Shown here piece by piece: positions 3,298 through 23,087 of a stretch of DNA of 64,000 nucleotides. Below the pieces are notes generated by a model. The model was not told the origin of the DNA, did not search any database, and saw nothing but the letters and a program-made list of their open reading frames with translations. The position numbers and the translations under genes were made by a program. How positions within the stretch are numbered: position 1 is the stretch's first letter; each line of letters begins with the position of its first letter. Source of the stretch: Actinomycetes bacterium. Lineage in GTDB: Bacteria > Actinomycetota > Thermoleophilia > Gaiellales > Gaiellaceae. Location: NCBI GenBank assembly GCA_026708005.1, contig JAPOVR010000087.1, positions 1-64,000 on the forward strand, written 5' to 3'.

Positions 3298-3532
3298 TCG
3301 GGAGGATCATTCTAGCTGGAGAACATGGCGGGTCGCCCCATCTTCGCGCTTCGGGGGCTGCATGGCGGTGCGGCATCTCCATGGGGACTGCCGATGCTGG
3401 GAGCCGGGCGTGGTGGAAGCCAAGGCCAGCCGGCGAGCGGCTTGCAGCCCGCTCTGCGATCCCCGCGCGATCGCTACGCCACGGCGATCGCCTAGCTGAC
3501 CTCTCCGCCCGCCGCTGTCTGGCCGCCGCGAA

Positions 3533-3632
3533 GGGCAGCCCACCTCCCACCCACCACCCGGGGGAGGGTAGCCCAGAAAGGCGCACAGTTTGCGCACGAT
3601 CTGTGACAGAAGCGTCACGAGAGTGCCCCAGG
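3533..3632 (-). repeat. Dispersed ~100-bp intergenic element, copy B
   Basis: Minus-oriented copy of the family seen at 2068, 11168, 28454, 43812, 49424 and 58922. It is one of the best preserved, with GTGACGCTTCTGTCACAGATC, then GTGCGCAAACTGTGCGC, then GGGCTACCCTCCCCCGGGT and the G-run. It lies downstream of the broken HD-domain gene in the same orientation. The surrounding 3298-4049 gap contains no convincing gene, only this element and the array at 3730-3934. Confidence 0.85.
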
Positions 3633-3729
3633 ACCACCCGGCTGGGCCCTCCGCCGTGTCCGGGGTGCGGCCCGGCTGGGATGGAGGCGGAGAAGGCCAT
3701 CGTGGTTGCGCCTTGGCCAGGGCCGCCAC

Positions 3730-3934
3730 CCCATGCCCACGAAGAGCACGGATCGCGATCGAGGGACTCGCCCGAGCCGAGGCCGCTGCACCCGCGCACG
3801 CGACGGGCACGGTAGGTTGAGCTGGGCGTTGACGATCCGGCCGGCGCCGCCCACGCACGTGAGGGGCACGGCCCACTCCGCGCGCAGGACGGGGCGAGCT
3901 TGACGACGTCGCCCCGCGCACGCGAAGGGCACGG
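3730..3934. repeat. Degenerate ~60-bp-period repeat array, CRISPR-like spacing
   Basis: Four imperfect copies of a 22-nt unit, consensus CCCGCGCACGCGANGGGCAC plus GG, at 3730, 3791, 3850 and 3913. Periods are 61, 59 and 63 bp. Spacers of 37-41 nt show no resemblance to each other. Copies 2-4 keep a small palindrome (CCCGCG/CGCG-GGG, CCCACG/CGTG-GGG) with apparently compensating changes. The period matches a type I-E CRISPR array (28-29 nt repeat plus 32-33 nt spacer), but the copies are diverged, the first is poor and no cas gene is in the window. It may be a decayed array or one of the other ~60-bp-spaced repeat clusters in this genome. Confidence 0.4.
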
Positions 3935-4049
3935 CGGTAGGGGCGAACCCGCCGTTGCCTGTAAGCCCATCGCACTGCCCCGGGAACCCTCGGGGCGCTC
4001 TTCCCTCGTAGGCCCAGCTCGCGGCGCACCGCCGCCGATGCCCGCTCGT

Positions 4050-4920
4050 CTACACCTCGAGGCGGTAGAGCGGAACGAGCTTCTTCTTGGCCTCGGCGTC
4101 GATGCGCGCGACGACCTCGATGTGGGGCTCGAGGCCAGAGCCCCGTAGCTTCGCCTTCAGCAGCTCGTCGACTTGGTAGATGCCAGACAAAGTCGTTCAT
4201 GGCGATCTCGTTCAGCACCGGGCGCTCCTCGCCGTCGCGGATGGTGACCGACTCAATGGCGGCTGTCGAGAGGGAGTGGATCGACATCCGCCCGCGCTCG
4301 AAGGGGATGTGAGAACGGCCCTCAGCCATATCGAGGGCATCAGCGACGCGCACGATGCCGGCCTCCAGGGTGGGGGGCCAGCCCGAGTCGCGATGTGAGG
4401 TATCGCCTGGAGCATGTCGCTGGCAATCACCGTCAGCTCGGGCTCCTGGTACGCCTCGGCGAGCAGCCCGCGGATCTTCGGCTCTGCGAGGAACAGGCAC
4501 GTGTCCTCGTGCCCCGGGCGGTGGACGGCCATCCCCACGCAGTGGAACATCGATCCGAGCGCCACGATGACCTCAGCGTCGCGGTGTTCATGTCGAAGTC
4601 GGCACGAGGGAGGGCTCGACCTTGTGCTTGACGAGCTGTCTGAGCAGCTTGAGCGCGATGTTGGTGACGACCTGGGCATGAACCCATGAATGGTCGTTGA
4701 TTTCGAGCCGCTTCACGGCGTTCACGTTCGCCACGTGCCACCACGTCTTGAGTTGGAGGTCTCGATTGGCCCGCTCGAGGAGATCCCGCAGCCGGAGGTT
4801 GGCGCGGGGCGGCGCGTTGATCCGCATCTTCGCGACGGCTTGCGCAGGCGTCAGCAGCGTCTCCTGCGCTGGCTCAGCGGAGTCCGGGGGCACAAGCCGC
4901 TCGGTGGGCTCCTCGGACAT
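4050..4920 (-). pseudogene. HD-domain protein gene with multiple frameshifts
   Basis: Pieces of one protein read continuously only by changing frame. The order is MSEEPTERL... to KLLRQLVKHKVEPSLV (4920 to about 4600), then RADFDMNT, then RDAEVIVALGSMFHCVGMAV (about 4585 to 4400), then DSGWPPTLEAGIVRVADALD to EIAMNDF (about 4390 to 4190), then GIYQVDELLKAKLRGSGLEP to a TAG at 4050-4052. That needs at least four indels. VHAQVV and MAVHRPGHED fit HD-family metal-dependent phosphohydrolase segments. The intact product would be about 290 aa. The clustered shifts argue for a genuine pseudogene, although indel errors in the assembly cannot be excluded. The gene has no obvious promoter and is followed by repeat copy B. 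Confidence 0.75.
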
Positions 4921-5031
4921 CAGCCCAACCCCAGATCATGAACCCAGGAGCGATGGCCGGCCGGCGATGCCATAGCCGGCGAGTACGCCACCAGCCGCTG
5001 CTGAGCGGGCGGGCGGGCTCTCGACAGCCCG

Positions 5032-9772: not shown

Positions 9773-10891
9773 GTGGGCATCCCGGCCCTGATCGCGCCCG
9801 GCCAGCGGCTTCTCTGCGGACCCGGCCCCTCAAACATCGAGCCCGGCGTGCAGGCGGTGATGCAACAGCCCGTGCTCGGGCACATGGACCCCGATCTCTT
9901 CCCGATCCTCGACGAGATCACCTCGATGCTGGCTGAGGCGTGGGGCCAGACAGATGGGCTCACGCTTGCGCTGCAGGCAACGGGAACGGCCGGTATGGAG
10001 GCTGGCATCGAGTCGCTCACCGAGCCCGGCGACACCGCTGTCGTCGCCGTCGCGGGTTACTTCGGGGCGAGGATCGTCGACATCTGCAACCGGCACGGGG
10101 CCAACGTCGTCGAGGTCACGGCCCCGTTTGGGCAGCCGGTCTCGCAGAGCGCGATCGCCGACGCGATCGAGGCCAGCGGCGGCGCGCAGATCGTGGCCGT
10201 CGTGCTCGCGGAGACCTCCACCGGCGTCCGTCAGCCGATCGACGAGCTCGGCGAGATCGCACATCACCATGGCGCGCTCCTCCTCGTCGACTGCGTGACC
10301 GCCCTCGGGGGAATCCCCGTCGACTTCACGCGGCACGGCATCGACTACGCGTTCTCCTGCTCGCAGAAGTGCCTCGGCGCTCCGCCGGGGCTCGCACCCG
10401 CTGCGCTATCGACGCGAGCGCTGGAGCGCATCGACGGGCGGCGCGCGCCAGCCGGGTTCACCTTCGACTTCAGGCTGCTCGAGCAGTACTGGCACGCCCG
10501 CCCGCCCACCTACCACCACACGGCGCCCGTCCTCCATCTGTACGCGTTCCACGAGGCGCTTCGGCAGCTCCATGCGGAAGGGCCTGAGCAGCGCTACACG
10601 CGCCATGCCGATGTCGGCACGCACTTCCAGGAAGGGCTGCGGCGCCGGGGGTTCGCCCTGCTGGCCGAGGCCGCCCACCAGCTTCCGCAGCTGACCGCGG
10701 TGTGCGTTCCGGACGGCGTCGACGGGAAGGACGTCCAGGTCGGTCTCCTGCGAAAGCATGGGATCGAGGTCGGCGGCGGGCTCGGTCCAACGTTCCCGGC
10801 GATGTGGCGCGTCGGCCTCATGGGCACGAACGCAACGCGCGAGACTGCCGACCGCGTGCTCAGCGCCTTCGCCGCCGAGCTCGACGCGTAG
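9773..10891 (+). CDS. Class V aminotransferase (alanine-glyoxylate/serine-pyruvate type)
   Basis: A PLP-dependent fold-type I aminotransferase of the AGXT/serine-glyoxylate family, transferring an amino group from Ala or Ser to glyoxylate or pyruvate. Markers are LLCGPGPSNIEPGV at the N-terminus, ATGTAGMEAG (cofactor phosphate region), LLVDCVTALGG with the pyridine-N Asp, and SCSQKCLGAPPGLA holding the Schiff-base Lys near residue 195. Length 372 aa is normal. The GTG start sits 9 nt from a -10 box. It is monocistronic and followed by two hairpins and a repeat-rich gap. Neighbours do not settle the substrate. Confidence 0.85.
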   Translation: MGIPALIAPGQRLLCGPGPSNIEPGVQAVMQQPVLGHMDPDLFPILDEITSMLAEAWGQTDGLTLALQATGTAGMEAGIESLTEPGDTAVVAVAGYFGARIVDICNRHGANVVEVTAPFGQPVSQSAIADAIEASGGAQIVAVVLAETSTGVRQPIDELGEIAHHHGALLLVDCVTALGGIPVDFTRHGIDYAFSCSQKCLGAPPGLAPAALSTRALERIDGRRAPAGFTFDFRLLEQYWHARPPTYHHTAPVLHLYAFHEALRQLHAEGPEQRYTRHADVGTHFQEGLRRRGFALLAEAAHQLPQLTAVCVPDGVDGKDVQVGLLRKHGIEVGGGLGPTFPAMWRVGLMGTNATRETADRVLSAFAAELDA

Positions 10892-15349: not shown

Positions 15350-16602
15350 AGATCGAGGCGCCGCGCGGTACCCACGACGTCCTTCCCGCCGATCAGCTGC
15401 TGCGGCAGGCGGTGATTGGCGCAGGGGAGTCGACGGCTGCGCGCTTCGGCTATAGCCGCATCACGACGCCGACCTTCGAGGAGACGACGCTGTTCGAGCG
15501 CACCTCAGGCGAGGGCTCGGATGTCGTCAACAAGGAGATGTACACGTTCCTCGACCGGGGCGGCCGGTCGCTGACGCTGCGGCCCGAGGGGACGGCCTCG
15601 GTGGCGCGGGCGTACATCGAGCGTGGGATGCACCGGCTGCCGCAGCCTGTGAAGACCTTCTACCTAGGGCCGATGTTCCGCTACGCCGCGCCGCAGAAGG
15701 GCCGCTACCGCGAGTTCTGGCAGATCGGCCTGGAGGCTCTCGGCTCCGACGATCCGGCGCTCGATGCAGAGCTCATGCTCGCGTTCGTCGACATCCTGAC
15801 CTCTCTCGGCATCAGCGGCGTGCGGCTCCAGCTGAACTCGATCGGCGGCCGGGAGTGCCGGGGCGACTACCTCGAGCGGCTGCGGGCGTTTCTCGCCGAG
15901 CACGAGGAGAGCCTCGACGAGGACGCTCGACGGAAGGCCGCGCGAAGCCCACTGCGCGTGTTCGACACGAAGAACCCCGCCCTCGCAGAGGTCCTGCGCG
16001 ACGCGCCCAAGATCGGCGACGCGCTCTGTGCCGCGTGTGCGGCGCACTTCGAGAGCGTCCGGGCCCACCTCGACGCGGCCGGTGTGGCCTACGAGCTAGT
16101 CCCCGAGTTGGTGCGCGGGCTCGACTACTACACGCGCACCGTGTGGGAGTTCATCGACGACTCGCTGGATGCCGCACAGAGCACGCTCTGCGCAGGCGGC
16201 CGCTACGACCACCTCGTCGAAGGTATCGGCGGCCCGGCAGCGCCCGGCGTGGGCTGGGCGGCCGGGATCGAGCGGCTCGAGCTGTCGGCGTCCGCACTGG
16301 AGCTCCCGACCGGCATCGATGTCTTCTTGCTCCTCGCTGAGGATGTCGATCGACCCCGGGCTCTCGCGGAGCTCACGTCTCTTCGCCGCGCCGGCCTCCG
16401 CTGCGAGACCGACTACGCATCGCGATCCATGAAGGGCCAGTTGACCCACGCCAACCGGCTGGGGGCCGCCTGGCGGGTGCGCGTCGATGGGACGGGCGCC
16501 ACCATCGAGCGGCGGGGCCTAGCCGAGGTGTCCGAGGTTGGCGTGGCGATCGATCGGATCGCCGAGCGAGTTCTCGCGCACGTCGAGAGGACCCGCGGAT
16601 GA
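15346..16602 (+). CDS. hisS: Histidine--tRNA ligase
   Basis: Class II synthetase charging tRNA-His in the cytoplasm. It begins PRGTHDVLP, the HisRS N-terminal signature. Motif 2 is in PQKGRYREFWQIGLEALG, the His-binding loop in LVRGLDYYTRTVWEF, and motif 3 in GVGWAAGIERLEL. A C-terminal anticodon-binding domain follows (about residues 320-418). Length 418 aa is standard. The GTG start overlaps the preceding stop and its own stop overlaps the aspS ATG, giving a tightly coupled three-gene operon. Confidence 0.97.
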   Translation: MKIEAPRGTHDVLPADQLLRQAVIGAGESTAARFGYSRITTPTFEETTLFERTSGEGSDVVNKEMYTFLDRGGRSLTLRPEGTASVARAYIERGMHRLPQPVKTFYLGPMFRYAAPQKGRYREFWQIGLEALGSDDPALDAELMLAFVDILTSLGISGVRLQLNSIGGRECRGDYLERLRAFLAEHEESLDEDARRKAARSPLRVFDTKNPALAEVLRDAPKIGDALCAACAAHFESVRAHLDAAGVAYELVPELVRGLDYYTRTVWEFIDDSLDAAQSTLCAGGRYDHLVEGIGGPAAPGVGWAAGIERLELSASALELPTGIDVFLLLAEDVDRPRALAELTSLRRAGLRCETDYASRSMKGQLTHANRLGAAWRVRVDGTGATIERRGLAEVSEVGVAIDRIAERVLAHVERTRG

Positions 16603-18338
16603 GCTGGCGCACGTCGATGTGCGGCGAGATTCGAACCGAGCAGGTTGGCGAGCGGCTGACGCTCGCGGGCTGGGTGAACGCTCGCCGCGACCATGGGGGG
16701 CTCGTCTTCGTCGACCTGCGTGACATGAGCGGTATCTGCCAGCTCGTGATGAACCCCGAGCGAGACCGCACCTCAGCGGAGGCTGCGCACGGGGTGCGCA
16801 ACGAGTACGTGCTGCAGGCTGAGGGCGAGGTCGTGCGGCGCGACCCGGAGAACGTGAACCCCGCGCTGCCCACAGGCGAGGTCGAGCTGCAGGTCGACCG
16901 GCTCGAGGTGCTCTCCTCCTCGACGCCGCTACCGTTCCAGCTCGACGAGGAGAACGTCGACGAGACGCTGCGGCTCCGCTACCGCTGGCTCGACCTGCGC
17001 CGGCCGCGGATGCAGCGGAACCTTCGCCACCGGGCGCTTCTCGTGGCGACCATTCGGCGGGTGATGGAAGAGCATGGGTTCATGGATATCCAGACGCCTG
17101 TGCTCTTCAAGCCAACCCCCGAGGGCGCGCGCGACTTCGTGGTGCCGAGCCGGCTGCATCAAGGTCGCTTCTTCGCCCTGCCGCAGTCGCCTCAGATCCT
17201 GAAGCAGCTGCTCGTCATCTCAGGGTTCGAGCGCTACTACCAGATCGCGATCTGCTTTCGGGACGAGGACCTGCGGGCCGACCGTGTGCAGGAGATCACG
17301 CAGCTGGACGTCGAGATGGCGTTTCCCGACGAGGACGGCCTGTTCGCGCTTATGGAGCGGATGATCGCGTCGGTCTGGGAGGAGTGCATCGGTGTCGAGC
17401 TCGAGACGCCGTTTGCCCGGATGACGCACGTGAGCGCGCACGAGCGGTACGGGTCTGACAAGCCCGATCTCCGGTTCGGTCTCGAGATCGAGGACGCCAC
17501 CGAGGTCACGCGAGGCTCGGAGTTCAGGGTTTTCGCGAACGCGCCGTGCGTGCGGTACCTCACCGTCCCGCGGGCATACTCGCGCACGGACCTCGCCAGG
17601 CTCGAGGAGGTCGCGAAGGAGTGGGGCGCGAAGGGGCTCGCCTACCTCGTGTACGGCGACGGCGGCGAGGCTCGCTCGCCGATCGCGAAGTTCCTCTCGG
17701 CGAACGAGCTCCAGGCCTTCCGGGCCGCGCCGGGCTCGACGGTGCTGTTCGGTGCGGGCGAGGCGAGCGAGGTCGCGCGCGTCTTGGGGCAGCTGCGGCT
17801 TCACCTCGGCGCCGAGCTGCGCCTGATCGACGAGGACGCCTGGCAGTTCGTCTGGATCACGGAGTTTCCGCTGCTCCACTGGGACGAGGACGAGCGGCGC
17901 TGGCAGGCCGTCCACCACCCGTTCACCCGGCCGGCGCCGGGCTCGACGGAGCTGCTCGACTCCGACCCTGCGGCCGCGACCGCCCACGCGTACGACCTCA
18001 CAGTGAACGGCATCGAGATCGGCGGGGGCTCGTTCAGGATCCACGAGCCCGATCTGCAGGCGAAGGTCTTCGACGTGCTACAGATGACCGAGGAGGAGCA
18101 GCGCGCGAAGTTCGGCTTCCTCCTCGATGCGCTGGCCCTGGGAGCGCCGCCGCACGGCGGCATCGCGTTCGGGATCGAGCGGCTGCTGATGGCGCTCCTC
18201 CGAGAGCCCAACCTCAGAGACGTGATCGCCTTCCCGAAGAACCAGGCCGGGCTCGACCCGATGAGCGGCGCTCCGGCACGGATCGAGGACTCCCAGCTTC
18301 GCGAGCTCGGTCTGCGCTCGCCGGAGCCGACGTTCTAG
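16599..18338 (+). CDS. aspS: Aspartate--tRNA(Asp/Asn) ligase
   Basis: A bacterial-type AspRS of 579 aa with an N-terminal OB anticodon-binding domain (LTLAGWVNARRDHGGLVFVD), a class II catalytic core (QSPQILKQLLVISGFERYYQ; CFRDEDLRADR), an inserted GAD domain (about residues 280-410), and motif 3 HGGIAFGIERLLM near the C-terminus. Whether it is discriminating or also charges tRNA-Asn depends on gatCAB/asnS elsewhere in the genome. It starts at the ATG overlapping the hisS stop (ATGA). Confidence 0.97.
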   Translation: MSWRTSMCGEIRTEQVGERLTLAGWVNARRDHGGLVFVDLRDMSGICQLVMNPERDRTSAEAAHGVRNEYVLQAEGEVVRRDPENVNPALPTGEVELQVDRLEVLSSSTPLPFQLDEENVDETLRLRYRWLDLRRPRMQRNLRHRALLVATIRRVMEEHGFMDIQTPVLFKPTPEGARDFVVPSRLHQGRFFALPQSPQILKQLLVISGFERYYQIAICFRDEDLRADRVQEITQLDVEMAFPDEDGLFALMERMIASVWEECIGVELETPFARMTHVSAHERYGSDKPDLRFGLEIEDATEVTRGSEFRVFANAPCVRYLTVPRAYSRTDLARLEEVAKEWGAKGLAYLVYGDGGEARSPIAKFLSANELQAFRAAPGSTVLFGAGEASEVARVLGQLRLHLGAELRLIDEDAWQFVWITEFPLLHWDEDERRWQAVHHPFTRPAPGSTELLDSDPAAATAHAYDLTVNGIEIGGGSFRIHEPDLQAKVFDVLQMTEEEQRAKFGFLLDALALGAPPHGGIAFGIERLLMALLREPNLRDVIAFPKNQAGLDPMSGAPARIEDSQLRELGLRSPEPTF

Positions 18339-18467
18339 CTGTCGGCCCGGCGCGAAGCACGTCCTGACGATTCGGGCGCGCGTCGGCGGCCCGCTGAGCG
18401 CCTACGCCGGCTAATCCTCGCCGCCCCGCCGGCCAAGGGTTGAGCGCTCCTCGGTCGAGCCTTGCGC

Positions 18468-18479: not shown

Positions 18480-19763
18480 GTGCAGGAGCTCACCGGCGAT
18501 GCATCCGAAGGAGAGGACTGGGCCTGGATTCGCCTCGGCGTCGAGGATCAGCTGATCCGACAGGCCACAGGCGGTGGACCCGGAGCCGCCGAGCTCTGCC
18601 GATCGCTGGAGGGCCTCTCGCTGTTGGAGGCGGCTGCGTGCGGCGGCGCGCCGCTCATGCTCGACGCGCTCCATGTCGCCCTCGGGCCCGCGGTCGCCGC
18701 TGACTCCTCGCCCGATCGCCTCGTCGTCGCGATGAGCGGTGGAGTCGACAGCGCGGTCGCGCTTCACCATGGGCGGGACGCCGGGCACGCGCCCATCGGG
18801 GTCACGCTGCGGCTCTGGGTCGATCCGGCTGCGCCCGACCATGATCGGGCCTGCTGCTCGCCGCGGGCCGCTCGCGCCGCCCGCGCGCTGTGCCACTCGC
18901 TCGCGATCCCACACGTTACGCTCGACCTTCGCGAGCGCTTCAGGAAGCGCATCGTCGCGCCGTTCATCGATGGATACGCGCGCGGGGAGACCCCGAACCC
19001 CTGCGTGCGATGCAACGGTCTGTTCCGCTTCGACGAGCTCGCCCAGTTCGCGTCCAGGCTCGGCGCCGCGCGGCTTGCAACCGGCCACTACGCGCGGATC
19101 GTCCGCCGCAACGGTCGTCTGCTGGTCGCCCGCGCCCACGATGTCGAGAGAGACCAGTCCTACATGCTGGCACGCCTGCCGCCGTGGGTGCTGTCGCTCC
19201 TCTGGTTTCCCCTCGGGGAGCAGACGAAGGGCGAGACCAGAGCCCAGGCACGGGCGCTGGGGCTCGAGGCAGCCGAGCGGCGCTCGAGCCAGGAGGCGTG
19301 CTTCCTCGGAGGCAGCGACTACCGCGACTTCCTCGCGCGGCATGGCCTCAAGCCCGCGGACGGGCCGGTGCTCGACGCGGACGGGCGAGAGCTGGGTCGC
19401 CACGGCGGCTTCTGGCGCTTCACGGCCGGGCAGCGCCGCGGGCTCGCGCTGGGAGGGACGCGCATGCCGCTGTACGTAGTCGAGACCGACGCCTCCACCA
19501 ACACGCTGACCGTCGGCCCTCGCACTGCGCTCGGGCGAACCCGCGTCCGCGTCGATCCCGGCGAGCTCTATGCGCCCGTCGAGCGAGCCGACGTCGCGCT
19601 GCGCTACGGCTCGCCAGCCGTCGCCTCACGTATCCTGCCTGAGGTTGGCGGCTTCTCGGTTGAGCTCGACGAGCCGGTGTTCGGGGTGGCGCGCGGACAG
19701 GTCGCGGTTGTGTACGAGGAGGATGCCGTGGTTGGAGCCGGCCTGATCAGCGACGCACGCTGA
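18480..19763 (+). CDS. mnmA: tRNA 2-thiouridylase MnmA with IscU-like N-terminal domain
   Basis: Adds sulfur to U34 of Glu/Gln/Lys tRNAs. The C-terminal 350 residues are complete MnmA: PP-loop AMSGGVDSAVAL (about residue 85), catalytic Cys in NPCVRCN, second catalytic Cys in SSQEACFLGG, and GHYARIV. The first ~75 residues are extra. They have an IscU/NifU scaffold-like pattern (DWAWIRLGVEDQLIRQATG, GPGAAELCRSLEGLSLLEA), but the three canonical cluster-binding Cys are not all in place. This suggests a fused, degenerate Fe-S/sulfur scaffold that may receive persulfide from a cysteine desulfurase encoded elsewhere. Total 427 aa versus about 360 for standalone MnmA. Confidence 0.9.
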   Translation: MQELTGDASEGEDWAWIRLGVEDQLIRQATGGGPGAAELCRSLEGLSLLEAAACGGAPLMLDALHVALGPAVAADSSPDRLVVAMSGGVDSAVALHHGRDAGHAPIGVTLRLWVDPAAPDHDRACCSPRAARAARALCHSLAIPHVTLDLRERFRKRIVAPFIDGYARGETPNPCVRCNGLFRFDELAQFASRLGAARLATGHYARIVRRNGRLLVARAHDVERDQSYMLARLPPWVLSLLWFPLGEQTKGETRAQARALGLEAAERRSSQEACFLGGSDYRDFLARHGLKPADGPVLDADGRELGRHGGFWRFTAGQRRGLALGGTRMPLYVVETDASTNTLTVGPRTALGRTRVRVDPGELYAPVERADVALRYGSPAVASRILPEVGGFSVELDEPVFGVARGQVAVVYEEDAVVGAGLISDAR

Positions 19764-20516: not shown

Positions 20517-23087
20517 ATGCGCACGGCAGCCGAGCTCCGCGAGGGCTTCCTGTCCTTCTTCGAGGAGAAGGACCACCTCCGGCGACCCTCCGGCTCGCTT
20601 GTGCCAGCCACCTACGACCCGTCTGTCCTCCTCACGACGGCCGGTATGCAGCCGCTCAAGCCCTACTTCCTCGGGCTTGAGTCGCCGCCGGCTCCACGGC
20701 TCGTGACGGTCCAGAAGTGCTTCCGCACGACCGACATCGACTTTGTCGGCCTGACCGGGCGCCACCTCACGTTCTTCGAGATGCTCGGCAACTTCTCGCT
20801 CGGCGACTACTTCAAGGATGGCGCCGTCGACCTGGCGTGGGAGTTCGTGGCCGAGCGGCTGTCACTCCCACGCGAGCGGCTGTGGGCGACCGTCTTCGCC
20901 GGCGACTCGGAGCTACGCCTCGGCCAGGACGAGGTGGCCGTCGCCGCCTGGCAACGGGTGGGGATTCCCGGCGAGCGGATTCGCGGCCTGCCGCGGTCGG
21001 ACAACTTCTGGCAGGCCGGCCCGACGGGGCCGTGCGGCCCGTGCTCGGAGCTGTACTTCGACCGCGGAGCGGAGCACGGCTGCGCTCGTCCCGACTGCGC
21101 ACCCGGGTGCGACTGCGACCGCTACCTCGAGTTCTGGAACCTCGTCTTCATGGAGTTCAACCTCCACGATGATGGGACGCTCACCCCGCTCCCCGAGCAG
21201 AACATCGACACAGGCCTCGGGGTCGAGCGCGGCTCTGCGCTCATGCAGGACGTCGACTCGGTGTATGAGACCGACGGCTTTCGCTCGATCATCGACTGGG
21301 TGACAGAGGAGACCGGCACTCTCTGGGGGGAGTCCGAGAGCGCGACCAAGGCGCACCGCGTGCTCGCCGACCACGGGCGGGCGATGACGTTTCTTGTCGG
21401 CGACGGGGTCGTCCCTGCCAACGAGGGCCGCGGCTACGTCCTGCGACGCGTCATCCGCCGCGCGATCCAACACGGCTCGCGCCTCGGGCTCGAGCCACCG
21501 TTCGTCGCCGCGCTCTCCGACATCGTGATCGACCTGATGAGCCCGGTCTACGGTGACCTCGCCGCCAACCGCACCGAGATTCACGATGTGCTCGGCGCCG
21601 AGGAGGAGCGCTTCTCGCAGACGCTGAAGACCGGTCTGCGGCTGTTCGATGAGGTGCTTGAGCGCAGCTCGAACCGCATCGCGGGCGATGATGCCTTCCG
21701 GCTGCACGACACCTACGGCTTCCCGCTCGAGCTGACGCGCGAGCTGGCGGACGAGCGAGGCCTCGCCGTGGACGAGGACGGCTTCGAGCAGCTCATGGCG
21801 GAGCAGCGAGAGCGGTCGCGGGCCGGACGCGGGAGCGAGGTCGAGCAGGCGGCGCAGTTCGCACGGAGCGCGAGCTTCAACACCGAGTTCGTCGGGTACG
21901 AGAAGCTCGACGTCCTCACGCAGCTGGGCGCCTGCGAGGCCACTGGCAACGGCTGCTTTCTCGGCAAGCTGCGGGAGTCGCCGTTCTATCCGGAGGGAGG
22001 CGGCCAGGTCTCCGATGCAGGGTGGATCGAGCACGAGGAAGGCAGCCGCGCCGAGGTCGTTCAGGCCTACCGGCTCGGCGACGATCAGGCGCTGCTCCTG
22101 CGTGGAGACGGCTTCGCGGAGGGTGATCGGATACGTGCGGTCGTCAACTGGGGCAAGCGGTTTCCGACCGAGGCAAACCACACGGCGACCCATCTCCTGC
22201 ACGGCGCGCTCCGCGAGGTGCTCGGCGACCACGTGCGCCAGGCCGGCTCCTCGGTGCAGCCCGACAAGCTGCGCTTCGACTTCTCGCACGGCCAAGCGCT
22301 CACGCCGGCCGAGCGCGAGCGCGTCGAGTCGCTGGTTAACGAGCGGATCTTCGCGAACAGCCCGGTACGCGCCTACACCGTCTCCCTCGAGGAGGCAAAG
22401 CGCCTCGGCACCACGATGCTCTTCGGAGAGAAGTACGGCGAGCACGTTCGCGTGCTCGAGGTCGGCGGGGTCTCCCGTGAGCTCTGCGGTGGCACGCACG
22501 TCCGGTCGAGCGCGGAGATCGGCGCGTTCAAGATCCTCGCGGAAAGCTCGACCGGTGCGACGACCCGGCGAATCGAGGCGGTCACCTCGCGTGCAGCGGG
22601 CAGCTACCTCTTCGAGCAGGAGCGTGAGGTGCGACACCTCAGCCAGCTGCTCGAGGACGAGCGCAAGGCTCGTGCCAAGCTCGCACGCGAAGCGCAGCGG
22701 TCGGGCTCGCGCGCAGACGACCTGGCGGAAGAGCTGCTTGACGCAGCGCGCGAGGTGGACGGCATCACCGTTCTCATTGCCCAGACAGGGCGGATGGAGG
22801 CCGACGCGCTCCTCCAGCTGTCGGACACGCTCAAGCAGCGTCGCGAGCCGGCGACGGTCGTGCTGGGAGCCCCGTCAAACGGCCGTCTCAACCTCGTAGC
22901 GAACTTCTCCCAGAGCGCCGTCGACCGCGGCGCGAGTGCCGCGGACGCCATCAGGACCGCCTGCGCGATCGTGGGCGGCGGTGGCGGCGGGCGCCCAACG
23001 ATGGCCCGCGGAGCCGGCACTGACCTCGACCGCCTCGACGAGGCGCTCAAAGCCGTCGAACAGGCCGTGGTCGAAGCGCTCGGCTGA
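20517..23087 (+). CDS. alaS: Alanine--tRNA ligase
   Basis: Full-length 856-aa AlaRS. The catalytic domain shows TYDPSVLLTTAGMQPLKPYF and ADHGRAMTFLVGDGVVPANE. The editing domain has zinc-binding ANHTATHLLHGALR and later CGGTHVR. A C-terminal coiled-coil/C-Ala region (about residues 700-856) ends the protein. It charges tRNA-Ala and edits Ser/Gly mischarging. A gap of 180 nt separates it from the ruvX promoter. This alaS-ruvX-mltG-aro order is widespread in Gram-positive genomes. Confidence 0.97.
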   Translation: MRTAAELREGFLSFFEEKDHLRRPSGSLVPATYDPSVLLTTAGMQPLKPYFLGLESPPAPRLVTVQKCFRTTDIDFVGLTGRHLTFFEMLGNFSLGDYFKDGAVDLAWEFVAERLSLPRERLWATVFAGDSELRLGQDEVAVAAWQRVGIPGERIRGLPRSDNFWQAGPTGPCGPCSELYFDRGAEHGCARPDCAPGCDCDRYLEFWNLVFMEFNLHDDGTLTPLPEQNIDTGLGVERGSALMQDVDSVYETDGFRSIIDWVTEETGTLWGESESATKAHRVLADHGRAMTFLVGDGVVPANEGRGYVLRRVIRRAIQHGSRLGLEPPFVAALSDIVIDLMSPVYGDLAANRTEIHDVLGAEEERFSQTLKTGLRLFDEVLERSSNRIAGDDAFRLHDTYGFPLELTRELADERGLAVDEDGFEQLMAEQRERSRAGRGSEVEQAAQFARSASFNTEFVGYEKLDVLTQLGACEATGNGCFLGKLRESPFYPEGGGQVSDAGWIEHEEGSRAEVVQAYRLGDDQALLLRGDGFAEGDRIRAVVNWGKRFPTEANHTATHLLHGALREVLGDHVRQAGSSVQPDKLRFDFSHGQALTPAERERVESLVNERIFANSPVRAYTVSLEEAKRLGTTMLFGEKYGEHVRVLEVGGVSRELCGGTHVRSSAEIGAFKILAESSTGATTRRIEAVTSRAAGSYLFEQEREVRHLSQLLEDERKARAKLAREAQRSGSRADDLAEELLDAAREVDGITVLIAQTGRMEADALLQLSDTLKQRREPATVVLGAPSNGRLNLVANFSQSAVDRGASAADAIRTACAIVGGGGGGRPTMARGAGTDLDRLDEALKAVEQAVVEALG

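Follow-up and report, generated by a model that had tools for sequence, protein, structure and literature searches.

The mnmA gene at 18480..19763 of the window (the whole stretch of 64,000 nucleotides that was analysed) encodes a tRNA 2-thiouridylase whose enzyme body is preceded by a domain of about 75 residues, which profile comparison identifies as IscU by descent. The reading that we favour, with a probability of roughly 0.6, is that this domain is an IscU that was captured by MnmA, stripped of its chemistry and kept as a non-catalytic structural part. An earlier note, made from the sequence alone, had proposed a degenerate IscU-like scaffold fused to MnmA and direct sulfur hand-over to it from a cysteine desulfurase. 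Conservation, profile comparison, the predicted structure and intermediate forms in relatives all support the fusion; for this protein the hand-over is not supported.

The mnmA gene and its product

The locus and the MnmA body contain the following features:
18480..19763, plus strand: MnmA (tRNA U34 2-thiouridylase) with an IscU-derived N-terminal domain; GTG start, 427 amino acids
18468..18473, plus strand: -10-like element TACGGT, 12 nt 5' of the GTG start; hints at a leaderless mRNA
16599..18338, plus strand: aspartyl-tRNA synthetase-like (aspS-like) ORF, upstream neighbour, named from sequence motifs
20517..23087, plus strand: alanyl-tRNA synthetase-like (alaS-like) ORF, downstream neighbour, named from sequence motifs
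18717..19310, plus strand: PP-loop (HUP) domain of MnmA, PF03054 (Pfam, E 4.3e-59)
18852..18857, plus strand: CysCys motif of the CC-CxxC-C (C-type) MnmA class, from sequence and pattern count
19002..19013, plus strand: CxxC motif (in NPCVRC), putative cluster or catalytic Cys, from sequence
19299..19301, plus strand: third conserved Cys (in QEACF), from sequence; equivalent of Cys199 of E. coli MnmA
19326..19748, plus strand: central PRC-barrel and C-terminal beta-barrel of MnmA (Pfam, PF20259 and PF20258)

The open reading frame was confirmed, with GTG at 18480 as the first codon and the stop at 19763; an in-frame TTG upstream of it, at 18462, is a less likely start. Its same-strand neighbours are hisS-like, aspS-like, short membrane-protein-like and alaS-like ORFs (names from sequence motifs). 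No desulfurase gene was found at the window locus, unlike the sister families f2 and f3, in which it occupies the position immediately upstream.

The aligned start is common to 29 members of the window's family (alignment A1). The pattern TAnnnT lies within -18 to -7 of this start in 26 of the 29 members, in 22 of them exactly at -12 (shuffled control, mean 1.5 and maximum 6), which suggests that the mnmA mRNAs of this family are leaderless. The earlier note had named a downstream start that removes the domain as a finding that would speak against it; on the strength of the shared -10-like element, such a start can be excluded with good confidence. Differences by codon position in the N-terminal domain were 0.29, 0.26 and 0.52, i.e. 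mostly in third positions, and the 14 closest pairs had dN/dS values between about 0.15 and 0.47. Judged by its sequence, the N-terminal extension is real and translated. A wrongly assigned start codon, with an untranslated upstream part, would agree with the non-ATG start and with the lack of a profile match in residues 1-86 (see below), but it is hardly credible against aligned starts that share a -10-like element, the codon-position bias and dN/dS values, and a confidently predicted fold.

The MnmA body scored above the cut-offs of the MnmA equivalog profiles NF001138 (328.9 bits, cut-off 284) and TIGR00420 (284.9 bits, cut-off 236.95) and contains the CC-CxxC-C motif. By these marks it is a complete enzyme body of the C-type, sharing the whole body, PP-loop and CC-CxxC-C included, with MnmA/TrmU proteins of that type and differing from them in the extra N-terminal domain. 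The CC-CxxC-C class is reported as the [4Fe-4S] type of MnmA (PMC8584467, PMC11784392), and the need of MnmA for a Fe-S cluster, as well as the route by which sulfur or cluster reaches it, is described as openly disputed (PMC11784392).

IscU ancestry of the N-terminal domain

The domain was delimited as follows:
18480..18704, plus strand: IscU-derived pseudo-scaffold domain, residues 1-75, with no cluster ligands and no IscU helix alpha-1
Residues 1-75, plus strand (AlphaFold2 model): strands 2-10, 13-22 and 25-32; helices 36-43, 48-52 and 58-75

The IscU-like motifs quoted in the earlier note, SLEGLSLLEAA among them, are found in the translated reading frame. Searching this region against IscU and SufU profiles, as the note had proposed, gave a divided answer. 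Pfam and NCBIfam profiles had no match in residues 1-86 of the 433-residue reading, even at E 10 (MnmA begins at residue 86), so the IscU likeness is invisible to a single-sequence profile search. The profile of the 29 family domains (A1), by contrast, aligned in hhalign to a profile of 20 MnmA-fused NifU_N domains from nine further families of the class (A2) with a probability of 96.7 and E 4.5e-10; the score was 56.5, compared to at most 22.5 in 100 column shuffles and 12.6 after reversal. Against IscU encoded separately beside mnmA the hhalign score was 32.9 (null maximum 18.9), and against SufU it was 21.9, at a probability of 10.5%. A SufU origin of the domain is not supported, given this last value and the IscU type of the fused relatives: in a comparison of A2 with the PDB, IscU chains were best (7c8m, E 1.9e-35) and SufU reached about 1e-13. 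By itself, the A1 profile gave convincing matches across the class in the window's family only (the best match elsewhere, E 6e-4, lies in a longer, apparently unrelated frame); it misses the fused NifU_N domains, and hhalign was therefore needed.

The domain is a constant part of MnmA in the window's family. The MnmA query was matched in 90 of 101 family genomes, and in 82 of the 90 (hand count from the match table) the match begins within query residues 1-9; the remaining eight are only pieces that begin inside the query. Thus, the domain is present in 82/82 genomes whose match reaches the N-terminus. A1 contains invariant glycine, leucine and alanine columns. The median pairwise identity is 0.59 in the domain vs. 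0.70 in the MnmA body, so the domain evolves somewhat faster.

AlphaFold2 modelled the first 80 residues as beta-beta-beta-alpha-alpha-alpha (pLDDT 91.0, pTM 0.79), from an alignment of eight rows, five of which are fused relatives with a fuller IscU domain and may bias the model towards the IscU fold. The best Foldseek matches of the predicted domain were IscU (probability 1.00, TMq about 0.7 (0.72), E only 4e-3). VIA-align superposed the model on human ISCU2 over 77 of 80 residues with Z 10.2 and rmsd 2.2; ranked by Z, the first 23 structural matches were without exception IscU/ISCU chains. The domain is thus predicted to have the IscU fold, a three-stranded sheet followed by helices, in line with the structure prediction that the earlier note had suggested as a check. 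The full-length model (pLDDT 93.7, pTM 0.91) points to rigid packing of the domain against the MnmA body. On the hhalign scores relative to their nulls, and on the matching position of the fused domain in orthologous MnmA proteins of sister families, the domain is IscU by descent. The claim that some 75 IscU-like residues precede the PP-loop is therefore borne out by family conservation, hhalign and the predicted fold. Relative to the IscU/NifU_N family (PF01592), the domain shares the predicted fold (Z up to 10.2) and a descent that runs through Pfam-recognised fused relatives; it differs in having no Pfam match, no ligands and no helix alpha-1, in its length of about 75 residues vs. 120-130, and in being covalently part of MnmA.

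Loss of the cluster ligands

Ligand positions were read by alignment to the A2 profile as Cys37, Asp39, Cys63, His105 and Cys106, in E. coli numbering. None of the five is kept in the window's family. The window's domain has two Cys, at residues 40 and 54, neither in a ligand position, and a Cys occurs in the domain of only 6 of the 29 family members, at positions that mostly differ. The earlier note had described the usual full set of three cluster-ligating Cys as lacking, which is correct but understated, as every cluster ligand is gone. The first residue of the model corresponds to E. coli IscU residue 25, so that helix alpha-1 is missing, and the Lys103-Cys106 (Lys-His-Cys) loop is absent as judged from the alignment and the range of the model. 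Deletion of IscU residues 1-12 is reported to abolish IscS binding (PMC2854127).

The MnmA-fused IscU domains of other families retain more. A NifU_N search of the order showed a second match, inside the MnmA open frame, in families f2, f3 and f4, and in the nine other families of the class NifU_N (Pfam) was fused to the front of MnmA in 20/20 sampled loci. We read the ligand positions in 65 fused domains outside the window's family (44 + 21 genomes, with the second copies L227 and L228 dropped). Cys37 was kept in 61 of the 64 readable domains, and all three Cys in 12 of 65. His105 alone was present in 38, Cys106 alone in 13, neither in 14 and both in 0/65. The equivalents of His105 and Cys106 are thus mutually exclusive in MnmA-fused IscU, while the IscUs encoded separately beside mnmA keep both: their pattern is C-D-C-H-C in 21/21 (18 + 3 from two samples; Fisher test for His105 plus Cys106 in fused vs. 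separate, 1.7e-20, with related sequences that are not independent). Cys37 was also considered as an invariant of the fusions; this holds for the 20 domains of A2 and fails in L219, L226 and L235 (L106 was unreadable). Outside the class, L235 (family f16, fusion at 3464-4924) has lost all five ligands, apparently independently of the window's family.

These counts bear on whether the window's domain might still work as a scaffold, assembling a Fe-S cluster or persulfide and passing it to the C-type MnmA. The retention of Cys37 in 61 of 64 relatives and the reported [4Fe-4S] nature of CC-CxxC-C MnmA (PMC8584467, PMC11784392) would be in keeping with such a function, yet with no ligand residue in the window's family, and any Cys in only 6/29 members, it is very improbable. 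A persulfide or cluster relay in cis is plausible in relatives whose domain retains Cys37 and Cys63, and so is sulfur hand-over in those of them that also have a desulfurase next to the fusion. The series of domains from intact to ligand-free shows the parts that evolution keeps, and the fused IscU-MnmA forms are ready-made test objects.

Distribution of fused and separate forms

In-frame IscU-MnmA fusions occur in sister families of the class with or without an adjacent desulfurase gene, and separate desulfurase-iscU-mnmA operons exist in Clostridia and others. Bacteria whose MnmA has such a degraded scaffold at its N-terminus form a large group found in soil. In an MnmA tree of 87 rows, 13 of them chosen to represent the window's family, this family formed one group (96/74) within a clade shared with f2, f3 and f4 (100/98). 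Family f6, whose iscU and mnmA are separate, branches among the fused forms of the wider group, so that fusions and fissions cannot be counted from this tree. Domain databases may well show the architecture, because Pfam detects the fuller fusions. A search of titles and abstract openings, in which subscription papers were mostly outside coverage, returned no report of an IscU-MnmA fusion or of mnmA frameshifting.

Two of nine sampled f7 genomes (L199, L203) have, among fused ones, an MnmA without the IscU domain, so the domain is not indispensable in the class and can be lost outright. The domain of the window might accordingly be regarded as a neutral relic on its way to loss, tolerated at the N-terminus, a state that would suit the loss of every ligand, the faster evolution relative to the body and the two f7 proteins. 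We consider this unlikely: the domain persists in 82/82 family genomes whose match reaches the N-terminus, dN/dS is well below 1, glycine, leucine and alanine columns are invariant, and the predicted fold and packing are confident.

Desulfurase partners and the hand-over proposal

The genomic survey for a nearby or fused desulfurase that the earlier note had called for was positive in relatives and negative at the window locus. In 6/6 f2/f3 loci the fusion is immediately preceded by a NifS/IscS-type desulfurase gene (the family was assigned by search for the three f3 enzymes), and a desulfurase gene takes this place in 11/11 genomes of f23, a family that is Rubrobacter-like by similarity to L108. 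Such neighbourhoods suggest a direct desulfurase-IscU-MnmA route. In L108 itself (Rubrobacter sp. MAG) the desulfurase upstream of the fusion, at 1476-2648, appears as two same-frame ORFs split by a stop; it is intact in related genomes, and the split is either a pseudogene or an assembly error.

With the f3 enzyme as query (E <= 1e-40), a NifS/IscS-type desulfurase was not found in the window genome, an absence that is provisional at 92.7% completeness; the same query matched in 67 of 199 class genomes, and three of those listed belong to the window's family. The window genome contains SufS and SufU, and SufS is the only desulfurase homologue in it that we judged canonical. The class-V aminotransferase at 9773-10891 was rejected as a desulfurase, being closest to pyridoxamine-pyruvate and 2-aminoethylphosphonate transaminases and below all cut-offs; by eye, the other class-V proteins of the genome (L033, L034, L035) are not canonical desulfurases either, and three weaker PF00266 matches (L037-L039) were left out of this review. 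The absence of a Tus relay, which the earlier note had proposed, agrees with the genome: no TusA match was found in it, again provisionally at 92.7% completeness. Direct sulfur hand-over through this domain is not supported for this protein: the domain has neither a ligating or persulfide Cys nor helix alpha-1, and the NifS-type desulfurase was not found in the genome.

We also considered whether a complete Cys set goes together with an adjacent desulfurase. The association is true for f2/f3 (6/6) and for the separate IscUs. It was rejected as a strict rule: f23 (11/11 genomes) and L108 have the desulfurase and lack Cys106, and members of f7, f55 and f73 keep the Cys106 equivalent with no adjacent desulfurase detected (upstream flanks were short in some loci).

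A variant of the hand-over dispenses with cysteines in the domain, which would dock a cysteine desulfurase, here SufS, with sulfur passing straight from the enzyme to the own Cys of MnmA. SufU docks desulfurases, and so does IscU according to PMC2854127; TusA was not found in the genome, and the gene order of f2, f3 and f23 points the same way. Even so, the domain misses both the IscS-binding helix alpha-1 and the Lys103-Cys106 loop, so that the known determinants of such a passive docking role are lost; there is no conserved Cys, the NifS-type partner was not found (E <= 1e-40), and an ancestry of IscU rather than SufU type gives no reason to expect SufS binding. We regard docking as rather doubtful. 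In Bacillus subtilis, a dedicated desulfurase, YrvO, is described beside mnmA (PMC11784392, PMC10219651). That system resembles the present one in that mnmA is served without Tus, and f2, f3 and f23 in that the desulfurase is adjacent; it differs in that the parts of those reports available to us do not mention a scaffold domain, and in that the window genome has no adjacent desulfurase.

Capture of an IscU that has since become a structural part, the reading that we prefer, would have started from a desulfurase-iscU-mnmA operon, in which the IscU scaffold was captured at the front of MnmA by in-frame fusion. In the window's family the fused domain has lost helix alpha-1, the His-Cys loop and the equivalents of Cys37, Asp39, Cys63, His105 and Cys106. 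Its beta-sheet core and C-terminal helix, predicted to retain the IscU fold, remain under purifying selection. The domain may now be a rigid, non-catalytic structural or tethering part packed on the MnmA body. Sulfur transfer to U34 would be carried out by the intact MnmA part through its own Cys, with sulfur that probably comes from SufS or elsewhere and bypasses the domain.

A predicted frameshift between iscU and mnmA in family f6

In f6, desulfurase, iscU and mnmA are in separate reading frames, and iscU and mnmA overlap. Thirteen of 15 f6 genomes (L236-L248), those in which an mnmA-linked iscU was found, were examined; G112 and G171 were left out, and L177, which repeats L240, was not counted. 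In eleven of the 13 (L236-L246), the last codons of iscU include a slippery heptamer (C_CCA_AAA or A_AAA_AAA) whose phase would let a -1 slip lead from iscU into mnmA. Ten of the 13 lack any ATG, GTG or TTG codon of the mnmA frame within 90 nt of the iscU stop, and the heptamer is present in all ten. L245 has both the heptamer and an ATG, and L247 and L248 have a GTG start for mnmA and no heptamer. Farther upstream, L236, L237, L239 and L241 have GTG/TTG codons of the mnmA frame inside the iscU region or beyond it, in a scan that missed L238. In the same f6 genes, 33 of 17779 codon positions carry an in-frame X_XXY_YYZ heptamer, 0/33 of them of the CCCAAA or AAAAAA kind. From this arrangement we predict that iscU and mnmA of f6 are joined by -1 programmed frameshifting. 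Transcriptional slippage could account for seven A, but hardly for CCCAAAA.

Programmed -1 frameshifting of the dnaX type is a known phenomenon. The f6 junction is similar to it in having an in-phase X_XXY_YYZ heptamer where the iscU and mnmA frames must switch, and differs in joining two different proteins, in having no clear stimulatory stem downstream of the slippery site (z from -2.1 to 0) and in concerning f6, not the window. MnmA thiolates U34 of tRNA-Lys(UUU), the tRNA that decodes the AAA codon. Hypomodified tRNA-Lys is reported to increase frameshifting in E. coli (PMC3980101). Because the codon at the slip is read by a substrate of MnmA, and hypomodification of that tRNA raises frameshifting, autoregulation of MnmA through the f6 junction is possible.

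A wider scenario, which we put forward tentatively and hold to be possible rather than probable, is that capture of IscU by MnmA took place in several deep lineages of actinobacteria and breaks the scaffold, with the window's family as the ligand-free end point. In f6 the union would be conditional, through the -1 frameshift, so that two products would arise, IscU-MnmA and a free IscU with all its ligands, and MnmA would regulate its own synthesis. If true, the f6 frameshift would be a self-referring control loop: the enzyme responsible for thiolating tRNA-Lys would owe its own synthesis to slippage at a Lys codon.
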